Shown piece after piece: positions 14,107 through 40,521 of a stretch of DNA of 64,000 nt. This stretch comes from Collimonas humicola (lineage in GTDB: Bacteria; Pseudomonadota; Gammaproteobacteria; Burkholderiales; Burkholderiaceae_D): contig NZ_JAGQEE010000001.1 of assembly GCF_018304945.1 (NCBI RefSeq), forward strand, positions 310,001 through 374,000. Reading direction: 5' to 3'. Each line of letters starts with the position of its first letter. Within the stretch, counting starts at the first letter, position 1. Below the pieces are notes generated by a model. The model saw only the letters and a list, made by a program, of their open reading frames with translations. It was not told the DNA's origin and ran no database searches. The position numbers were made by a program, and so were the translations under genes.

Positions 14107-14557
14107 GTTGAATCTCCAGAGAGGTGATAAAAATATTTGCGGAACAGCGTCGCTCGGATACGTTCAAGGGCCTGCAGAGCATGGCGGATTGCGCTTCCGT
14201 GCGGTCTTGTCCCTGGCCGTCTGATCCAAATAAAAAAGACGGTTAAATTACAAAAGTCCCAGCCAGATAAAAAGCGGTGACTCTATATGCAACCTCTAAT
14301 GATACCGGCGAAAAGCGCAACCGTCAGTTTGTTTCGCGTTGATCCGGCGGCTTGAAATTGTCGCCGGGATTGCAGCACGCAACTTCAGGGGCTTCAGCTG
14401 GTTCAGCCGGGAAAGCCGGTTGGCGCGCGGCGCAGGCCATCAAATAGTCCTAATGCCCGCGAGTTTAGGCTTGGCAACATGGTATGTCAATCAATATCTT
14501 ATGTCTTATATAAGACATATCATTGCGCAATTTTTGCTGGACGACAATGGGGGTTTT
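14107..14557. other. Divergent control region mdh / gntR
   Basis: These 451 bp hold promoters for both arms of the TCA cluster. The clear element is the 20-bp palindrome near the gntR side. An A-rich patch (around 14231-14275) lies on the mdh side. Reading frames open across this stretch lack family-like sequence and are not called. Confidence 0.6.
14500..14519. promoter_or_regulatory. 20-bp perfect palindrome, probable GntR operator
   Basis: TATGTCTTATATAAGACATA is perfectly self-complementary and lies 38 bp upstream of the chosen gntR start. It has the GT(N)nAC geometry of operators bound by HutC-type GntR regulators. Binding by the adjacent regulator, with autoregulation and control of mdh and/or sdh, is inferred. 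Confidence 0.7.
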
Positions 14558-33309: not shown

Positions 33310-34764
33310 ATGTTTGCAGCAGTGGATTTGGGGTCCAACAGTTTTCGTTTGCATATTGGCAAATATAATGGTGATGCGATCCGCGTCATCAAGAGTGCGC
33401 GCGACCCGATCCGCCTGGCTGCCGGCCTCGACAGCAAGGGTTACCTGACCGAACAGGCGATGCAGGTGGCGCTGGATTCGCTGGCGCGCTTCCGCAATAT
33501 CCTGGCCGACTACCAGCTGGAAGCGGTGCGCGTGGTCGCCACCAACACGCTGCGGGTGGCCAAGAACGCCGCCGAATTCCTGCCGATCGCCGAGCAGGTG
33601 ATCGGCTATCCGATTGAAATCATTTCGGGCGAGGAAGAAGGCCGCCTGATCTACATGGGCGTCGCCAGCATGCTGCGCCTGCCCAACGAAAAGCGGCTGG
33701 TGCTGGACATCGGCGGCGGCTCCACCGAACTGATCCTGGGCCGCGGCCAGCAGATCGAACGGGTCGAATCGTTCGGCATCGGCACGGTCAACCAAAGCCT
33801 GGCGTTCTTCGCCGACGGCCAGATCACCGCCGCCGCCTACGATGCCGCGGTGCTGTCGGCGCGCAGCCATTTCGAAGATGCCGCGCCGCCGTACCGGCCG
33901 CAGAACTGGAGCCATGCCTACGGTTCTTCCGGCACCATCCGTGCGATTGCCGAGACCATCGACAGGAACGGCCTGGGCGATCATCGCCTGTCTTACACCA
34001 GCCTGGAGGCCTTGCGCGCGCGCTTCGTCGAGTTCGGCCATGTCAGCCGCATCGACCTGCTCGGCATGAAGCCGGAGCGCGCTGCCGTCATGGTCGGCGG
34101 CCTGGCGGTGCTGATCGGCCTGATGCAGGAACTCGGCATCGAAGTGATCCAGCCGATCGAAGCCGGCTTGCGCATGGGCGTGATGTGGGATCTGCAGCTG
34201 CGCGGCACGCGGCTGGACCGGCGCGACCAGTCGGTGCACGATTTTTCGCAGCGTTTCCATGTCGACCAGCTGCGCGCCAGCCGTGTTGCGGAAACGGCAA
34301 CCTCGCTGTTTGAAATGCTCAAGCCGGCCAACGACGGCCTCAGCCAGTATCTGCACTGGAGCGCCTTGCTGCATGAGGTCGGACTGGTAGTGTCGCAAAG
34401 CGGCTATCACAAGCATGCCGCCTACCTGATCGAAAACGCCGACCTGTCCGGTTTCACCACCCGCGAGCAGCGCGCGATGAGCATGCTGATCCTGGGGCAG
34501 AAGGGCAACCTGCGCAAGATCAGCGACGCCTTGCTCGATCCGGATTTCTCCAAGGCGGTGCTGGCCCTGCGCCTGGCCGTCATGTTCCTGCATTCGCGCA
34601 TAGAGATCGATCTTGACGAACTGCGTCTGAAAATGAAGAGCAAGATCGAGCTCGACATCAAGCGCGACTGGATCGAGGATCATCCCACCGCGACCTACTG
34701 GATGGCCAAGGAGCAGGACTGGTGGCGCGAGATCGGTGTCGATTTCGCCATCCGCCGGACCTGA
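33310..34764 (+). CDS. ppx: Exopolyphosphatase (Ppx/GppA family)
   Basis: Releases phosphate from polyphosphate chains, or converts pppGpp in the GppA branch. The 484 residues have the ASKHA-fold phosphate loops DLGSNSFRL (6-14) and LDIGGGSTELI (about 137-147), EIISGEEEGRLIY, and a C-terminal HD-like helical domain (WSALLHEVGL). The length and domain set match Ppx. AAAGG precedes the ATG. A perfect hairpin follows the gene. No ppk is seen in the window. Confidence 0.9.
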   Translation: MFAAVDLGSNSFRLHIGKYNGDAIRVIKSARDPIRLAAGLDSKGYLTEQAMQVALDSLARFRNILADYQLEAVRVVATNTLRVAKNAAEFLPIAEQVIGYPIEIISGEEEGRLIYMGVASMLRLPNEKRLVLDIGGGSTELILGRGQQIERVESFGIGTVNQSLAFFADGQITAAAYDAAVLSARSHFEDAAPPYRPQNWSHAYGSSGTIRAIAETIDRNGLGDHRLSYTSLEALRARFVEFGHVSRIDLLGMKPERAAVMVGGLAVLIGLMQELGIEVIQPIEAGLRMGVMWDLQLRGTRLDRRDQSVHDFSQRFHVDQLRASRVAETATSLFEMLKPANDGLSQYLHWSALLHEVGLVVSQSGYHKHAAYLIENADLSGFTTREQRAMSMLILGQKGNLRKISDALLDPDFSKAVLALRLAVMFLHSRIEIDLDELRLKMKSKIELDIKRDWIEDHPTATYWMAKEQDWWREIGVDFAIRRT

Positions 34765-36166: not shown

Positions 36167-36694
36167 ATGGTTGCCAGTAAAATTGTTAAACGCGCTGTTA
36201 AAAAGCCGGTAGTTGCAGTCAGAGCGGCCGCCAAAGCCAAGCCGGCTGCACGGCCGGCAGTCAAGGCCAGCCCGAAGGCGGCGCCGGCGGTAAAGGCTGC
36301 GGCAAAACCTGCAGCGAAACCATCGGTGAAAGCGGCGGCCAAGCCGGGTCCGAAGCCGGCAGCCAAACCGGAATTGAAAGCCGCGCCGAAGCCGCTGATC
36401 GCTGCCAAGCCGCTGGCCGTCAAGCCGGCGCCAAGCCTGAAGTCTTTGCCGGACGCCAAAGCCAAGGTCAAGAAGGCCAAGCTGGTACGCGACAGCTTCA
36501 CCATGCCGGCCGATGAATACCAGGTGCTGGGCGACGTCAAAAAGACCTTCCTGAAGGCGGGCCTGGAAGTGAAAAAGAGCGAATTGCTGCGCGTCGGCGT
36601 TGCCCTGATCCGCGACCTGAACCTGGCAAACCTGAAGCTGGCCGTGGCCAGCCTGCCGCCAGTCAAGGCCGGCCGGCCGAAAAAAGAGAAGTAA
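36167..36694 (+). CDS. Histone H1-like protein with C-terminal ribbon-helix-helix-like domain
   Basis: The 175-residue protein has a Lys/Ala/Pro-repeat N-terminal half (about 1-100; repeating KPAA/KAAPK units) like bacterial H1/AlgP tails. A folded C-terminal part of about 70 residues has a strand (VRDSFTMP) and two helices (ADEYQVLGDVKKTFLKAG, KKSELLRVGVALIRDL). It ends in AGRPKKEK. The C-terminal pattern resembles a ribbon-helix-helix DNA-binding domain. DNA compaction or regulation is inferred from composition. A strong terminator follows. Confidence 0.75.
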   Translation: MVASKIVKRAVKKPVVAVRAAAKAKPAARPAVKASPKAAPAVKAAAKPAAKPSVKAAAKPGPKPAAKPELKAAPKPLIAAKPLAVKPAPSLKSLPDAKAKVKKAKLVRDSFTMPADEYQVLGDVKKTFLKAGLEVKKSELLRVGVALIRDLNLANLKLAVASLPPVKAGRPKKEK

Positions 36695-36774
36695 GCAGCG
36701 GCCTGCCAGGCAGCGAGGTCCGTGGCTTGCGCTGCGGCTCAGCGCACTGCCAGTGTTTTGATTCAGGACGCTAT

Positions 36775-36833
36775 AAACACGAAAAACATGAAATATCCTT
36801 CTGGTTATTTCCATGTTTTTCGTGTTTTTTTTG
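36775..36833 (+). terminator. Strong rho-independent terminator
   Basis: Arms AAACACGAAAAACATG(-)AAATA and TATTTCCATGTTTTTCGTGTTT pair over 21 bp with one bulge around a 10-nt loop and are followed by TTTTTT. It ends the H1-like gene and insulates the olsB operon that starts 117 bp later. Confidence 0.9.
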
Positions 36834-36842
36834 CCTTGAAAA

Positions 36843-36926
36843 TTGTCATTTCGCCACTGTTGCTATGTCATAAAACCGAAATAATTTTGTCATTTTCTTG
36901 AAGTAATCGGTGGTTAGGCTTGTCAT
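36843..36926 (+). promoter_or_regulatory. Array of Pho-box-like repeats upstream of olsB
   Basis: TTGTCAT at 36843, ATGTCAT at 36865 and TTGTCAT at 36887 are spaced exactly 22 bp apart. Weaker 7-mers (CCACTGT at 36854, CCGAAAT at 36876, TTGAAGT at 36898) lie on the 11-bp grid between them. A fourth TTGTCAT at 36920 is also in 11-bp phase. This is the 7+4 tandem geometry of PhoB boxes (consensus CTGTCAT with A/T-rich 4-bp spacers). A weak -10 (TAGGCT, 36915) would fall at the expected distance. PhoB binding is inferred. Confidence 0.7.
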
Positions 36927-36950
36927 CGTCACAATCTGAAAGGACGATGA

Positions 36951-37718
36951 ATGCAACTCCTAACTAATGCTGGCGCAGCGAGCTCAAGTGAAGCCAAGTT
37001 GACGGTTAGCCTGGCCAGCACGCAGGAAGAAGTGCGCGAAGTGCAGCGTTTGCGCTACAAGGTTTTTATCGAGACGATGGGCCTGTCTGCGCTGGCCAAT
37101 GCCGATGGACTCGACAGCGACGAGTTCGACGCTTATTGCGATCACCTGATCGTACGCGACACCAAGACGTTGCGCGTGGTCGGCACTTATCGTCTCATGA
37201 GCCCGCACGGCGCACGGCGCATGGGCCGCTATTACTCCGAACAGGAATTCGACCTGGGCCGGCTCGACAACCTGCGCAGCAGCATCGCCGAAGCCGGGCG
37301 CGCCTGCATCGATCCAGACTACCGCAGCGGCAGCGTCATCATGCTGCTGTGGGCCGGCCTGGCCGCATTCATGCGGCGCGAGCGCTGCGATTACCTGATG
37401 GGCTGCGCCAGCGTCAGCCTGGCCGATGGCGGCCACAATGCTGCAGCCTTGTATCACGCGCTCGATCAAAGCAGTTTCTCGCCCGCCGAATATCGGGTCA
37501 CGCCGCATGTGCCGTTTCCGGTCCATGAGCGCGAATCCGGCCACGTGGCCCAAATGCCGCCGCTGCTGAAAGGCTATCTGCGCAGCGGCGCCTGGGTCTG
37601 CGGCGATCCGGCCTGGGATCCTGATTTCCATTCCGCCGATTTTTTCCTGCTGCTGCCCTTGTCGAAACTGGACGGGCGCTACGCACGTCACTACTTGAAA
37701 GAAGCGAGGACGACATGA
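36951..37718 (+). CDS. olsB: OlsB-like ornithine acyl-ACP N-acyltransferase
   Basis: The 255-residue GNAT-fold protein has the Acetyltransf_5/OlsB pattern. VQRLRYKVFIETMGLSA is at about 30-46, RVVGTYRLM at 75-83, IAEAGRACIDPDYRSGSVIMLLWAGL at 115-140, and YLMGCASVSL follows. OlsB adds a 3-hydroxyacyl chain to ornithine to make lyso-ornithine lipid, a phosphorus-free membrane lipid; OlsA then completes it and is not seen here. AAAGGA precedes the ATG. It is the first gene of a three-gene operon with overlapping frames, downstream of the Pho-box-like array. Confidence 0.85.
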   Translation: MQLLTNAGAASSSEAKLTVSLASTQEEVREVQRLRYKVFIETMGLSALANADGLDSDEFDAYCDHLIVRDTKTLRVVGTYRLMSPHGARRMGRYYSEQEFDLGRLDNLRSSIAEAGRACIDPDYRSGSVIMLLWAGLAAFMRRERCDYLMGCASVSLADGGHNAAALYHALDQSSFSPAEYRVTPHVPFPVHERESGHVAQMPPLLKGYLRSGAWVCGDPAWDPDFHSADFFLLLPLSKLDGRYARHYLKEARTT

Positions 37719-38590
37719 AACCAGGCGAACAGTTTCTGGAAGCGGCTTTGTTCGGCGCCAATGCGGTCGCCGGCTCCACCTCGTCGAAGCGCGATCCGAT
37801 CCGCTTCCGCACGATCTGGATTTCCGATGTCCATCTGGGCACCACCGGCTGCCAGGCTGCTCGCTTGCTGGAATTCTTGCGCGCCACCGAATCGGATACC
37901 TTGTATCTGGTCGGCGATATCATCGATGGCTGGCAGTTGAAGCGGCGCTGGTACTGGGACCAGGTTCATAACAACGTGGTGCAGACGGTATTGAAAAAGG
38001 CCAAGAAGGGCACTGAAGTGATTTTCGTGCCGGGCAACCACGACGAAGCGGTGCGGCAGTTCATCGATCTCGATTTCGGCGGCATCCGCATCCGTGACGA
38101 GCTGGTGCATACCACCGCCGACGGCAAACGCATGCTGGTGCTGCACGGCGACCGCTTCGATGGCGTGATCGCCTGCGCCAAGTGGCTGGCGTATGTCGGC
38201 GATGGCCTGTACACCGTGATTCTGAAATTTAACCAGTGGTTCAACGGCTGGCGCGCGCGCGCCGGCCTGCCTTACTGGTCGTTGTCGCAATACCTCAAGC
38301 TGAAGGTGAAAAACGCCGTCAATTACATCTCTTCGTTTGAAGATGCATTGGCTGGCGAGGCGAAAAAGAAAGGACTGGACGGCGTTATCTGCGGGCACAT
38401 CCACAAGCCGGAAATCCGCGACATCGATGGCATCACCTATTGCAACGACGGCGATTGGGTGGAGAGCCTGTCGGCGCTGGTGGAAGAGGCCAGCGGCGCA
38501 CTGCGGCTGGTCACCTGGCAAGAAATCATGCAGCAGAAAAAGGCAGTTTCCAGCAATCAGATCAGAGACTTATGCGAATTGCCATCGTAA
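37715..38590 (+). CDS. Calcineurin-like phosphoesterase, PlcP/LpxH type
   Basis: The 291-residue metallophosphoesterase has the metal-binding motifs ISDVHLG (36-42), VGDIIDGW (66-73), VPGNHDE (105-111) and ICGHIHKPE. The family is usually named after LpxH (UDP-2,3-diacylglucosamine hydrolase). Its longer homologues include PlcP, which removes phosphate head groups from phospholipids under phosphate starvation. The overlap with olsB (ATGA) and with the glycosyltransferase favours a PlcP-like role. LpxH activity remains the alternative. It has no signal peptide. Confidence 0.82.
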   Translation: MKPGEQFLEAALFGANAVAGSTSSKRDPIRFRTIWISDVHLGTTGCQAARLLEFLRATESDTLYLVGDIIDGWQLKRRWYWDQVHNNVVQTVLKKAKKGTEVIFVPGNHDEAVRQFIDLDFGGIRIRDELVHTTADGKRMLVLHGDRFDGVIACAKWLAYVGDGLYTVILKFNQWFNGWRARAGLPYWSLSQYLKLKVKNAVNYISSFEDALAGEAKKKGLDGVICGHIHKPEIRDIDGITYCNDGDWVESLSALVEEASGALRLVTWQEIMQQKKAVSSNQIRDLCELPS

Positions 38591-39630
38591 CGGACGCCGC
38601 CCAGACCCAGATCAACGGCGTGGTCAACACGCTGCGTGCCACCACCGCCGGCCTGCGCAACAACGGCCATGAAGTATTGCTGCTCAGCCCGGACGATTGC
38701 CAGACCTTTGCCTGTCCCACTTATCCGGAAATTCGCCTGGCCTACAAGCCCTATGCCAGGGTCGCCGCCAGCCTGAAAGCGTTTGCTCCTGATTGCATCC
38801 ATATTTCCACGGAAGGTCCGATGGGGCTCGCCGCCAGGCGCTTCTGCCTGCGCCAGGGCATAGGTTTCACCACGGCCTACCACACCCGTTTCCCGGAGTA
38901 CCTGAGCGCGCGTTCCATGTTGCCCAAGGCGATCACTTATCGCTGGCTGCGCTGGTTCCACGGCCCTTCCAAGGCTGTCATGGTGCCGACCCCGCATGTG
39001 ATGCGGGAGCTGGAGCAGCGCGGTTTCCGCCATCTGGTGTTGTGGGGCAGGGGCGTGGATACGGAACGCTTCAAGCCGGTCGACGAGGACCGCGCCTGCA
39101 TCGTCCGTCCGCTGTATCTGTATGTCGGCCGGGTTGCGGTGGAAAAGAACATCGAATCCTTCCTGCAGGTCGATTTGCCTGGCACCAAATGGGTGATCGG
39201 CGACGGTCCGCAGCGCGAAGAACTGCAGCAACGCTATCCGCAGGTGCAATTCCTGGGCGCCAAGGCGCACCACGAACTGACCTCGTACTACAACTGCGCC
39301 GACGTCATGGTCTTCCCTAGCCATACGGATACCTTCGGCCTGGTCATGGTGGAAGCCATGGCCTGCGGCGTGCCGGTCGCCGCCTACCCGGTGCCGGGTC
39401 CGGTGGATGTGGTGGCGCACGGCCGTTCGGGGATACTGGACCACGACCTGACCTCGGCTTGCCTGATGGCGCTCGGCCTTGATCGCCGCGAGGTGCGGCG
39501 GCACGCACTGGAGTACTCGTGGGACACAGCGACCCTGCAGTTCCAGCATCATCTGCATCTGATCCATGGCGCCAAGGCGCGCCCCAAGAAAATCCTGACC
39601 AGTCAGTCGCGGCCGGCTTCCGGCCTGTAG
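38572..39630 (+). CDS. GT4-family glycosyltransferase, probable lipid glycosyltransferase
   Basis: The start at MRIAIVTDAA overlaps the phosphoesterase gene by 19 bp and gives 352 residues; the longer frame is not family-like. It is a GT-B fold GT4 enzyme. The N-terminal domain has QINGVVNTLRATTAGL and DCIHISTEGPMGLAARRFC. The C-terminal domain has VGRVAVEKNIESFL, VIGDGPQREEL and the nucleotide-sugar motif FPSHTDTFGLVMVEAMACG. Similar enzymes (SqdX, mannosyl- and Agt-type) glycosylate lipid acceptors. With PlcP making diacylglycerol, this would make a glycolipid. The sugar is unknown. Confidence 0.83.
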   Translation: MRIAIVTDAAQTQINGVVNTLRATTAGLRNNGHEVLLLSPDDCQTFACPTYPEIRLAYKPYARVAASLKAFAPDCIHISTEGPMGLAARRFCLRQGIGFTTAYHTRFPEYLSARSMLPKAITYRWLRWFHGPSKAVMVPTPHVMRELEQRGFRHLVLWGRGVDTERFKPVDEDRACIVRPLYLYVGRVAVEKNIESFLQVDLPGTKWVIGDGPQREELQQRYPQVQFLGAKAHHELTSYYNCADVMVFPSHTDTFGLVMVEAMACGVPVAAYPVPGPVDVVAHGRSGILDHDLTSACLMALGLDRREVRRHALEYSWDTATLQFQHHLHLIHGAKARPKKILTSQSRPASGL

Positions 39631-39636
39631 CCATGA

Positions 39637-39664
39637 AAAAAGCCCCGCAGTGCGGGGCTTTTGT
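39637..39664 (+). terminator. Rho-independent terminator of the olsB operon
   Basis: AAAAAGCCCCGC-AGT-GCGGGGCTTTT: a G+C-rich 7-bp core extended by A/T pairs and ending in TTTT. It closes the three-gene operon. Confidence 0.92.
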
Positions 39665-39693
39665 CTTGAAGCAGGATATCTATTCCCAGCGAC

Positions 39694-40521
39694 TTACCAG
39701 AATTTCCACCAGTGTTCTTTGGCCACGACCTTTTTGCCGTCGGTGCCGGTGCCGCCAACATAAATGCTGTTAGGGTAGGTTTTCTTCAGCACGCGCTCGG
39801 AGTCGTCGCGCAACTGCGTCATGCCCAGGGCGTCATACGATTGCACCATGATATGCAGCGCTTCTTCCACTGCGGGCGCGTCACGGTATTCCGAGATTGC
39901 GCTCTGGGCGCGATTGACGGAAGCAACATAGGCGCCGCGGCGGTAGTAGTAGCTGGCGACGTGGACGTCATACTGCGCCAGCGCATTCACCAGGTACTTC
40001 ATGCGGTCCAAGGAGTCCGGCGCATAAGTGCTGTTCGGGAAGCGCACCACAACTTGCTTGAATGCGTCGAATGCATCGCGTGCGGCTTTCGGATCGCGTT
40101 CGGTGGCGTCTTCGCTCGACAGGAAATCGAAAATGCTGACCTTGTCGTTGAAGTTCACCAGGCCGCGCAGGTAGTACATATAGTCGACGTTAGGGTGATT
40201 CGGATGCAGCTTGATGAAGCGGTCGATCGCCGCCAGCGCTTCAGGCTGTTCGCCCTGGCGGTAGTGGGCATAGGCGATATCCATCTGCGCCTGTTGCGCA
40301 TAGGTGCCGAACGGATAACGCGATTCCAGCTTTTCAAAGTACTTAATTGCCTTATCGTAGCCGCCGCTGTTCATTTCATCCTTGGCCTCCGAGTATAATC
40401 GGGGGGCGGACCAGTTTGCGGTTTCATCGACTTTGTCTGGCAGCAAGCCACACGCAGATAAGGATAGAACGAATGCCGCTGCAGCTAGTTTTAAGAGTCT
40501 TTTTTGCATAGTTTTTTGCAA
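39694..40521 (-). CDS. bamD: Outer-membrane assembly lipoprotein BamD
   Basis: The 275-residue lipoprotein has the lipobox SLSAC (Cys24). TPR-like repeats follow, with AKDEMNSGGYDKAIKYFEKL at about 45-64 and FGTYAQQAQMDIAYAHYRQG. It also has the BamD-specific HPNHPNVDYMYYLRGL and later TPR segments. BamD joins BamA in the beta-barrel assembly complex at the inner face of the outer membrane. It is transcribed away from rluD, which starts 68 bp upstream; this divergent bamD/rluD arrangement is conserved in many proteobacteria. Confidence 0.95.
   Translation of the reverse strand: MQKTMQKRLLKLAAAAFVLSLSACGLLPDKVDETANWSAPRLYSEAKDEMNSGGYDKAIKYFEKLESRYPFGTYAQQAQMDIAYAHYRQGEQPEALAAIDRFIKLHPNHPNVDYMYYLRGLVNFNDKVSIFDFLSSEDATERDPKAARDAFDAFKQVVVRFPNSTYAPDSLDRMKYLVNALAQYDVHVASYYYRRGAYVASVNRAQSAISEYRDAPAVEEALHIMVQSYDALGMTQLRDDSERVLKKTYPNSIYVGGTGTDGKKVVAKEHWWKFW

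Follow-up and report, generated by a model that had tools for sequence, protein, structure and literature searches.

Do the TGTCAT hexamers repeated in front of an olsB-like gene of Collimonas humicola mark a PhoB-dependent promoter, and what would the genes behind it do to the membrane? We have analyzed the locus within a window of 64,000 nucleotides (the whole stretch of DNA examined, positions 310,001 to 374,000 of contig NZ_JAGQEE010000001.1, whose numbering starts at 1 in all coordinates below), and in comparison with related genomes. Judging from sequence comparison, the operon is very probably activated by PhoB and would serve phosphate-sparing membrane remodeling. A first-pass annotation had proposed Pho regulation, and at the level of sequence this proposal is supported by an E. 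coli matrix, by boxes in front of orthologues, by a geometry shared with pstS, and by Pho genes neighboring the operon genes in relatives. The analysis shows directly how the genes are ordered, the sequence, conservation and geometry of the boxes, the protein families and the neighborhoods of the genes; we infer the transcription response, the enzyme activities, the lipid products and the sugar, and with them a swap of lipids in C. humicola.

Three overlapping genes between two terminators

The features of the locus are collected in Table 1. The overlapping gene trio flanked by strong terminators that had been described earlier is borne out both by the coordinates and by the fold energies compared with shuffled sequences. 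The upstream region (36774-36840) folds at -26.0 kcal/mol (z -8.3) and the downstream region (39628-39672) at -21.8 kcal/mol (z -4.8), and for each of them 0 of 200 shuffles were equally stable. The upstream terminator presumably belongs to the preceding gene for a lysine/alanine-rich protein (36167-36694). A simple terminator scan had neither flanking terminator in its output, and Rfam, run over 36700-39800, reported 15 matches at E ≤5, all under the gathering score.

Table 1. Features of the operon, its promoter region and its surroundings, in window coordinates.
Feature	Coordinates	Strand	Remarks
ppx (exopolyphosphatase family)	33310..34764	+	PF02541, 1.4e-65
Rho-independent terminator upstream of the operon	36775..36832	+	fold, and T run after the stem
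First TGTCAT	36844..36849	+	not conserved, not PhoB-box-like
Distal predicted PhoB box	36866..36887	+	units TGTCATAAAAC + CGAAATAATTT
Proximal predicted PhoB box	36888..36909	+	units TGTCATTTTCT + TGAAGTAATCG
Predicted -10 hexamer TAGGCT	36915..36920	+	spacing shared with pstS, by eye
Fourth TGTCAT	36921..36926	+	past the -10; shares bases with the left arm of the inverted repeat
Inverted repeat TCATCGTC-N12-GACGATGA	36923..36950	+	position of the predicted start site and the Shine-Dalgarno region
olsB	36951..37718	+	ornithine N-acyltransferase homologue, 255 aa
plcP-like phosphoesterase gene	37715..38590	+	291 aa; ATGA overlap with olsB
GT4 glycosyltransferase (Agt-like) gene	38572..39630	+	352 aa; 19-base overlap with the plcP-like gene; start is a chosen ATG, the listed ORF begins further upstream
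Operon terminator	39637..39664	+	fold

What the three enzymes would do

The product of the first gene fits an OlsB homologue. It matches PF13444 (4.1e-35), and its top NCBIfam models are two OlsB equivalogs (158 and 154 bits against cut-offs of 320 and 350; equivalog match 2.7e-46, under the curated cut-off). These scores are under half of the equivalog cut-offs, and the enzyme might therefore use lysine or some other amino acid. The olsA homologue of the genome is unlinked (contig C24); its best matches are OlsA models (127 bits against 300), and the matrix scan finds no predicted box in front of it.

The third gene encodes a protein matching PF13439 and PF13692, which fits the kind of glycosyltransferase that often follows plcP. 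GT4 enzymes carry an E-x7-E motif; here the first motif residue is D in 64 of 69 sequences (D-x7-E) and E in 5, and the second E is present in 69 of 69. GT4 homologues lie directly beside plcP in many Burkholderiales loci. The two genes are co-directional neighbors in 14 of the 20 loci of a neighborhood set that was hand-picked to be diverse rather than random. In the named set, 79 loci from the best 80 of at least 581 relatives, they are arranged in this way in 43. In four loci of the family the GT4 place is occupied by an unrelated GT28 homologue of MGDG synthase, and one locus has both; a GT28 in the GT4 slot therefore points to diacylglycerol as the acceptor. C. humicola also has a GT28 homologue, in whose locus no box scores >9. 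This natural exchange of GT4 and GT28 in one slot offers a direct test of glycosyltransferase function.

Could the operon be Pho-regulated and make other products, namely lysine or other amino lipids, with a GT4 that acts on another lipid or adds a sugar that one would not expect, for instance glucuronic acid? The OlsB scores under the equivalog cut-offs would agree with this, as would the available text on Acinetobacter, in which ornithine lipids and lysine lipids alike require OlsB (PMC11828411), and on Agt enzymes, among which the sugar donor varies (PMC8528852). But in 16 of 31 other-family loci the next gene after olsB is olsA-like (one member of this cluster was domain-scanned, and is PF01553), and the glycosyltransferase that can replace GT4 behind plcP is of MGDG-synthase type. 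We consider such other products unlikely, though they are the strongest competitor to ornithine lipid and glycosylated diacylglycerol.

The phosphoesterase, which matches PF00149, fits a PlcP-type, non-LpxH enzyme. Its solved-structure matches are LpxH-type hydrolases in 9 of 9 cases (best E 1.4e-6), and the top NCBIfam models of the GT4 are far under cut-off and of mixed function, with lipid glycosyltransferases ranking first. One could then propose a second LpxH-like enzyme next to an envelope polysaccharide GT4, in an operon for lipid A or surface glycans. We find this very improbable. The identity with LpxH is rejected because the protein reaches 46 bits against the LpxH model, under the cut-off of 190, while the genome encodes a separate LpxH at 275 bits, and because its motif reads GNHD instead of the GNRD of LpxH. 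The GNHD motif is invariant in 25 sequences, as are D38, H40, D68, N108, H144, H228 and H230, which we take to be the metal ligands. Also against a glycan operon are the predicted Pho boxes, the linkage to olsB, ppk and ppx, and the GT28 exchange. The separate LpxH gene agrees with the earlier PlcP-like reading of this phosphoesterase.

A tandem of 11-bp units in front of olsB

The TGTCAT copies start at 36844, 36866, 36888 and 36921, in steps of 22, 22 and 33; the first-pass annotation had reported real copies, each placed one base low (36843, 36865, 36887 and 36920). Within the window the pattern TGTCAT-N16-TGTCAT with up to 2 mismatches is not above chance (5 found, 3.5 expected). Its exact form occurs only twice in the 5.62-Mb genome, both times inside the array of this operon; the remaining 10 genome matches listed have one mismatch each, and a reversed control pattern gives 6.

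Scoring the array with a PhoB matrix, as had been suggested, singles it out. The matrix was trained solely on E. coli Pho promoters, and among 127,964 window positions it ranks 36865 first (score 18.0) and 36887 ninth (11.8), with the match at rank 12 likewise in 11-bp phase. By this prediction, 36866-36909 is a tandem of 11-bp PhoB units, and the "22-bp array" is its visible half. The 22-bp pair claimed earlier is real, but the true period is 11 bp, with the alternate unit degenerate in the genus. In alignments, this second unit of the distal box reads TGACAT in many family relatives, and a genuine 22-bp array for another protein is ruled out because the middle 11-bp unit is intact in many relatives. 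The proximal box is near-identical across the 14 genus loci, and recognizable in many loci of the family.

The first and fourth TGTCAT, formerly counted as members of the array, are rejected as PhoB boxes on matrix, position and conservation. Of the 14 genus loci, the window's own is the only one with an exact copy at 36844, and the register of this copy is absent from the 8 best matrix positions of a 120-bp stretch. The copy at 36921 is present in 14 of 14 genus loci, and by eye it is not seen at the equivalent place outside the genus in the family alignment.

PhoB of E. coli recruits RNA polymerase at promoters without a normal -35. The spacing from the last unit through 3 nt to GTTAG is identical, by eye, at the olsB and pstS promoters of the genome, and the -10 hexamer reads TACGCT in many family relatives. 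A strict box-to-minus-10 pattern is found at 14/14 genus, 12/49 family and 0/31 other-family olsB loci. The inverted repeat in the leader, a candidate for a conserved regulatory RNA hairpin, has a fold z of about -2; transcription may in fact start only after its left arm. Start-adjacent stems occur in 17 of 80 olsB leaders compared with 4 of 90 control genes (18 of 80 and 8 of 90 for stems anywhere in the last 50 bases); they are enriched, but the majority of olsB leaders are without one. Covariation in an alignment of 20 hand-picked leaders, weighted toward a clear -10, is weak, its score being matched or exceeded in 46 of 500 shuffles.

Conservation of the boxes and Pho context

Are the boxes retained in front of orthologues? 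The genome set for olsB comprised 106 of 109 genomes (the weak matches G102, G110 and G135 were left out), and the upstream tests took in every one of the 14 genus loci, together with 80 of 95 other genomes with an olsB match. A TGWCAY pair at 22 bp is present in 14/14 genus loci, 17/49 loci from the rest of the family and 2/31 from other families, compared with a shuffle average of 0 to 0.03 loci. The comparison with relatives that had been proposed thus finds the 22-bp pair in every sampled genus locus and less often outside the genus. The matrix score exceeds that of dinucleotide-shuffled sequence (p ≤0.01) in 13/14, 34/49 and 13/31 loci, respectively, and misses this threshold upstream of olsB in 15/49 family and 18/31 other-family loci; three loci (L061, L065, L066) carry olsB-plcP without a recognizable box at p ≤0.01. 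As a positive control, 24 of 27 pstS loci pass the matrix test (27 of 30 were used). Among the best 80 of at least 581 relatives, the E. coli matrix gives p ≤0.01 for 1 of the 6 olsB-plcP-GT4 units that lie outside the family, and for 13 of 37 plcP-GT4 units.

Elsewhere in the genome, pstS and ppk carry boxes like those of olsB, and phoR (above cut-off) and a phoB-like gene (271 bits, curated cut-off 296.2) lie about 4 kb from pstS. We give very little credence to another OmpR-family regulator acting on the repeats in answer to a different stress: direct-repeat sites are common for this family, and many of the 59 genome matches to the PhoB model are other response regulators, but with the E. 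coli PhoB matrix no position of the window scores higher than this site, pstS has similar boxes with the same -10 spacing, and ppk has boxes.

Neighbors of the operon genes in relatives include olsA, ppk, ppx and sixA. Several relatives have ppx adjoining olsB, and the ppx of the window is possibly a remnant of that Pho neighborhood. The fullest form among the matches listed is olsA-olsB-plcP-GT4-ppk-sixA (locus L321), where the E. coli matrix recognizes no PhoB box. One may tentatively picture, with more doubt than confidence, a phosphorus-economy island of Burkholderiales under PhoB, its order shuffled and its members kept together, with phosphate banked as polyphosphate. Its membership, equally tentative, might be plcP for lipid stripping, either of two exchangeable glycosyltransferases acting on diacylglycerol (GT4, or GT28 plus a small membrane partner), olsB (sometimes joined by olsA) and the polyphosphate genes ppk, sixA and ppx. 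If this is true, phosphate recovered from phospholipids would be stored as polyphosphate. With the ppk-linked forms of relatives one can test whether membrane turnover is connected to the storage of polyphosphate.

Proposed mechanism

Under PhoB control, the operon would work as follows. At low phosphate, PhoR would phosphorylate PhoB, which would occupy both boxes, with their four 11-bp units in tandem, and bring RNA polymerase to a promoter lacking a normal -35. OlsB would N-acylate ornithine, and the unlinked OlsA homologue would finish ornithine lipid. PlcP would strip phospho-head groups from phospholipids to leave diacylglycerol, on which the GT4 would put a sugar. Two phosphorus-free lipids would thereby replace phospholipid, and the freed phosphate would be reused.

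Comparison with known systems

Operons of plcP and agt are known from Pseudomonas aeruginosa (PA3219-PA3218), Methylosinus trichosporium OB3b and SAR11 (PMC8528852, PMC9239053, PMC4796936). In P. aeruginosa, plcP-agt1 lies behind a Pho box and Agt1 makes MGDG (PMC8528852). The likeness, as far as the available text of these papers goes, is plcP beside a diacylglycerol glycosyltransferase, with a Pho box upstream in Pseudomonas. The available text does not report olsB as a member, whereas in C. humicola olsB is the promoter-proximal gene, and both lipid arms would therefore depend on the same promoter. Likewise, the six marine types of plcP neighborhood place plcP near genes for phosphorus-free lipids and Pho boxes, as here, and their account in the text names neither olsB nor ppk as a neighbor (PMC4796936).

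For olsB, the available text reports Pho boxes upstream in Burkholderia sensu lato, and in P. xenovorans a replacement of phospholipids when phosphate is low (PMC7814305). In Acinetobacter it describes olsB as Pho-regulated and olsA as unlinked and not induced (PMC11828411). The PhoB boxes upstream of olsB in both groups resemble those predicted here (PMC7814305, PMC11828411), and Acinetobacter olsA is unlinked and box-less as in C. humicola (PMC11828411). Unlike in C. humicola, the available text for either group mentions neither plcP nor a glycosyltransferase downstream of olsB.

We found no description of a joined olsB-plcP-agt operon in the open-licence literature, in agreement with an earlier remark that none has been characterized in Oxalobacteraceae. 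Remodeling by PlcP and Agt has so far been described, in the sources available, for marine bacteria, Pseudomonas and alphaproteobacteria; the C. humicola locus would place both phosphorus-free lipid arms of a betaproteobacterium behind a single PhoB-type promoter. Each part of the operon is of a known kind.

Promoter architecture

The three genes overlap, as the first-pass annotation had them, and the terminators it placed on both flanks of the operon are far stabler than shuffled sequence. The four TGTCAT copies it described before olsB are present, each one base further on than claimed.

Coordinates of the features in the window
Feature	Position	Remark
TGTCAT copies	36844, 36866, 36888, 36921
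PhoB matrix hits	36865, 36887, 36876	ranks 1, 9 and 12
PhoB boxes	36866-36909
Predicted -10	36915-36920
Leader inverted repeat	36923-36950	covers predicted start site and Shine-Dalgarno region of olsB
olsB	36951-37718	+ strand
plcP-like phosphoesterase gene	37715-38590	+ strand
GT4 glycosyltransferase gene	38572-39630	+ strand
Palindrome ATGTCTTATATAAGACAT	14500-14519	scored by the PhoB matrix on either strand

We scored both strands of the window (127,964 positions) with a 19-column PhoB matrix that draws on six promoters of E. coli K-12 (phoA, phoB, pstS, ugpB, phoH and phoE; 10 boxes in total) and includes zero sequences from the window's clade. This check, proposed with the original reading, put the best position of the whole window inside the array, as the first of three hits in 11-bp phase; of the eight best positions in the 120-bp stretch around the array, none begins at the outermost TGTCAT copies. 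The palindrome is probably a different operator.

The 22-bp spacing that was first noticed is real, but the underlying format is one of 11-bp PhoB units, the second of which has decayed. Read by eye, the element in many other members of the family is approximately TGTCATnAAAC-TGACATGnAnC-TGTCATTTTGC-TGAAGTAATCG-nnn-GTTACGCT. It thus comprises four 11-bp units, a format given for PhoB in the part of a review that we drew on (PMC4415409). As read from these sequences, the window's 22-bp spacing is the outcome of the second unit decaying to CGAAATAATTT. Pairs at 22 bp with up to 2 mismatches are not enriched in the window (5 vs. 3.5 expected), and exact TGTCAT-N16-TGTCAT occurs twice across the 5.62-Mb genome, both times within the olsB array. 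Our genus sample has 15 genomes, 14 of them with olsB; TGTCA at -85, -63 and -30 is kept in all 14 loci, and the distal copy is exact solely in the window's own genome.

The pstS promoter of the same genome reads CGTCATAAAGC-TGTCATAAATC-TTG-GTTAGAGT and that of olsB TGAAGTAATCG-GTG-GTTAGGCT, so that the last unit is equally far from the -10 in both. A strict pattern for this spacing is found in 14/14 olsB regions of the genus, 12/49 of the rest of the family, and 0/31 of other families. Tandem boxes also precede ppk, which is divergent from pstS. About 4 kb from pstS lie phoR (395 bits, above its cut-off) and a PhoB-like regulator gene (271 bits, below its cut-off of 296.2).

Conservation of the box

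The suggested comparison with relatives took the best matrix score in the 200-base region preceding olsB against dinucleotide shuffles. At p<=0.01 a box is present in 13/14 genus loci, 34/49 other loci of the family, and 13/31 loci of other families; the positive control, pstS, gives 24/27. L061, L065 and L066, where olsB-plcP is present, are among the loci in which the E. coli matrix recognises no box. Among named loci, the same matrix and threshold find a box in 6/9 olsB-plcP units without an adjacent glycosyltransferase, 1/2 with GT28, 1/6 with GT4, and 13/37 plcP-GT4 units. Outside the family, therefore, either PhoB regulation is less certain or the box is different.

The first reading was right in substance, and regulation of the operon by PhoB is well supported by the sequence evidence.

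Leader inverted repeats

Inverted repeats are enriched in olsB leaders (17/80 vs. 4/90 control genes), and their sequence differs from genus to genus. Covariation is weak, and the left arm lies directly against the -10 at several loci; the repeat could be either an RNA hairpin or a DNA operator. Past the -10, the leader of the genome's own pstS (L147, L020; C11:1286703) has a long inverted repeat, ~12 bp, around GTTGTGAAA and TTTCACAAC; similar repeats are visible in congeners.

The encoded proteins

The enzymes are likely to act as OlsB, PlcP and GT4. OlsB matches PF13444 (E 4.1e-35), and its top NCBIfam models are the two OlsB equivalogs, both scoring under half of their cut-offs. PlcP is calcineurin-like and scores 46 bits on the LpxH model (cut-off 190), on which a separate gene of the genome scores 275 bits; the motif is GNHD in PlcP vs. 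GNRD in that LpxH. The predicted metal-binding residues do not vary across 25 sequences, the window's and 24 homologues at 47-85% identity to it. The GT4 protein has two GT4 domains, with D-x7-E replacing the usual E-x7-E in 64/69 sequences. An olsA homologue lies unlinked on contig C24, with no PhoB box found in front; the relevant part of an Acinetobacter study likewise has olsA unlinked and without a box (PMC11828411).

Gene neighbourhoods

Of 148 relatives, 109 have olsB and 82 have plcP (E<=1e-40). Both occur together in 75 genomes (from 106 with olsB and 82 with plcP); in 47 of these the two genes are within 10 kb of each other, and in 31, 14 of which belong to the window's genus, within 1.5 kb. 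The reduced-genome congener G001 (1.7 Mb) has no match to olsB, plcP or GT28 at the thresholds applied. At 20 plcP loci hand-chosen for spread, GT4 stands beside plcP in the same direction in 14 and divergently in 1, GT28 is adjacent in 1, and neither in 4. An olsA-like gene (one member scanned, PF01553) directly follows olsB at 16/31 loci of other families and 3/49 of the family. Two genomes, G018 and G090, have pstS within 7 kb of olsB.

Many loci carry ppk, ppx and sixA close to olsB or plcP. The 80 named plcP loci, the best 80 of 581 relatives, include a GT4 match anywhere in 50 (some weak and distant), olsB in 27, ppk in 20, sixA in 17 and GT28 in 9; GT4 directly follows plcP in 43/79 of them. 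Five of these 80, L320, L321, L326, L335 and L342 (Acidovorax), have olsB-plcP-GT4-ppk-sixA on one strand, preceded by olsA in L321; the GT4 stop is immediately followed by the reading frame of ppk in L321, L326 and L342. Such loci physically link lipid remodelling with polyphosphate synthesis.

Exchange of GT4 and GT28

At four family loci (L064, L089, L092 and L094) the place after plcP is taken by a GT28-type MGDG-synthase homologue (PF06925, scanned for L089 and assigned by similarity for the others), accompanied by a small protein that by eye looks membrane-bound. L084 has both GT4 and GT28, and plcP and GT28 lie within 5 kb in 12/35 genomes having both. This replacement of one enzyme by a non-homologous one is the strongest indication from sequence that the slot would serve diacylglycerol glycosylation.

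GT28 is present in 14/15 sampled genus genomes, and in some other genera it sits behind plcP. In the window's genome (L226, G000:C17:376367) it is followed by a 168-aa protein with no Pfam or NCBIfam match, and no Pho box was found nearby.

Comparison with known systems

From all this we infer a swap of phospholipids for ornithine lipid and glycosyl-diacylglycerol at low phosphate. Ornithine lipid is reportedly described in a phosphate-limitation study of Herbaspirillum seropedicae. In our searches of open-licence papers we found no description of a joined olsB-plcP-agt operon.

The single pieces are already known, going by the parts of the sources we used. P. aeruginosa has plcP-agt1 with a Pho box, and MGDG and GADG were demonstrated (PMC8528852); a methanotroph has a plcP-agt operon (PMC9239053). 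In Burkholderia s.l., Pho boxes precede olsB in 21/43 genomes, or 43/43 with a second matrix ("data not shown"), and P. xenovorans replaces phospholipids at low phosphate (PMC7814305). PlcP and OlsAB are Pho-dependent in a Pseudomonas, where plcP and olsAB are encoded apart, going by locus tags (PMC5082522). Six plcP neighbourhood types have been described, in a section that leaves olsB unmentioned (PMC4796936), whereas here olsB shares the plcP operon. What seems new is their combination under a single PhoB-type promoter, along with the exchange of GT4 for GT28 and the forms linked to ppk.
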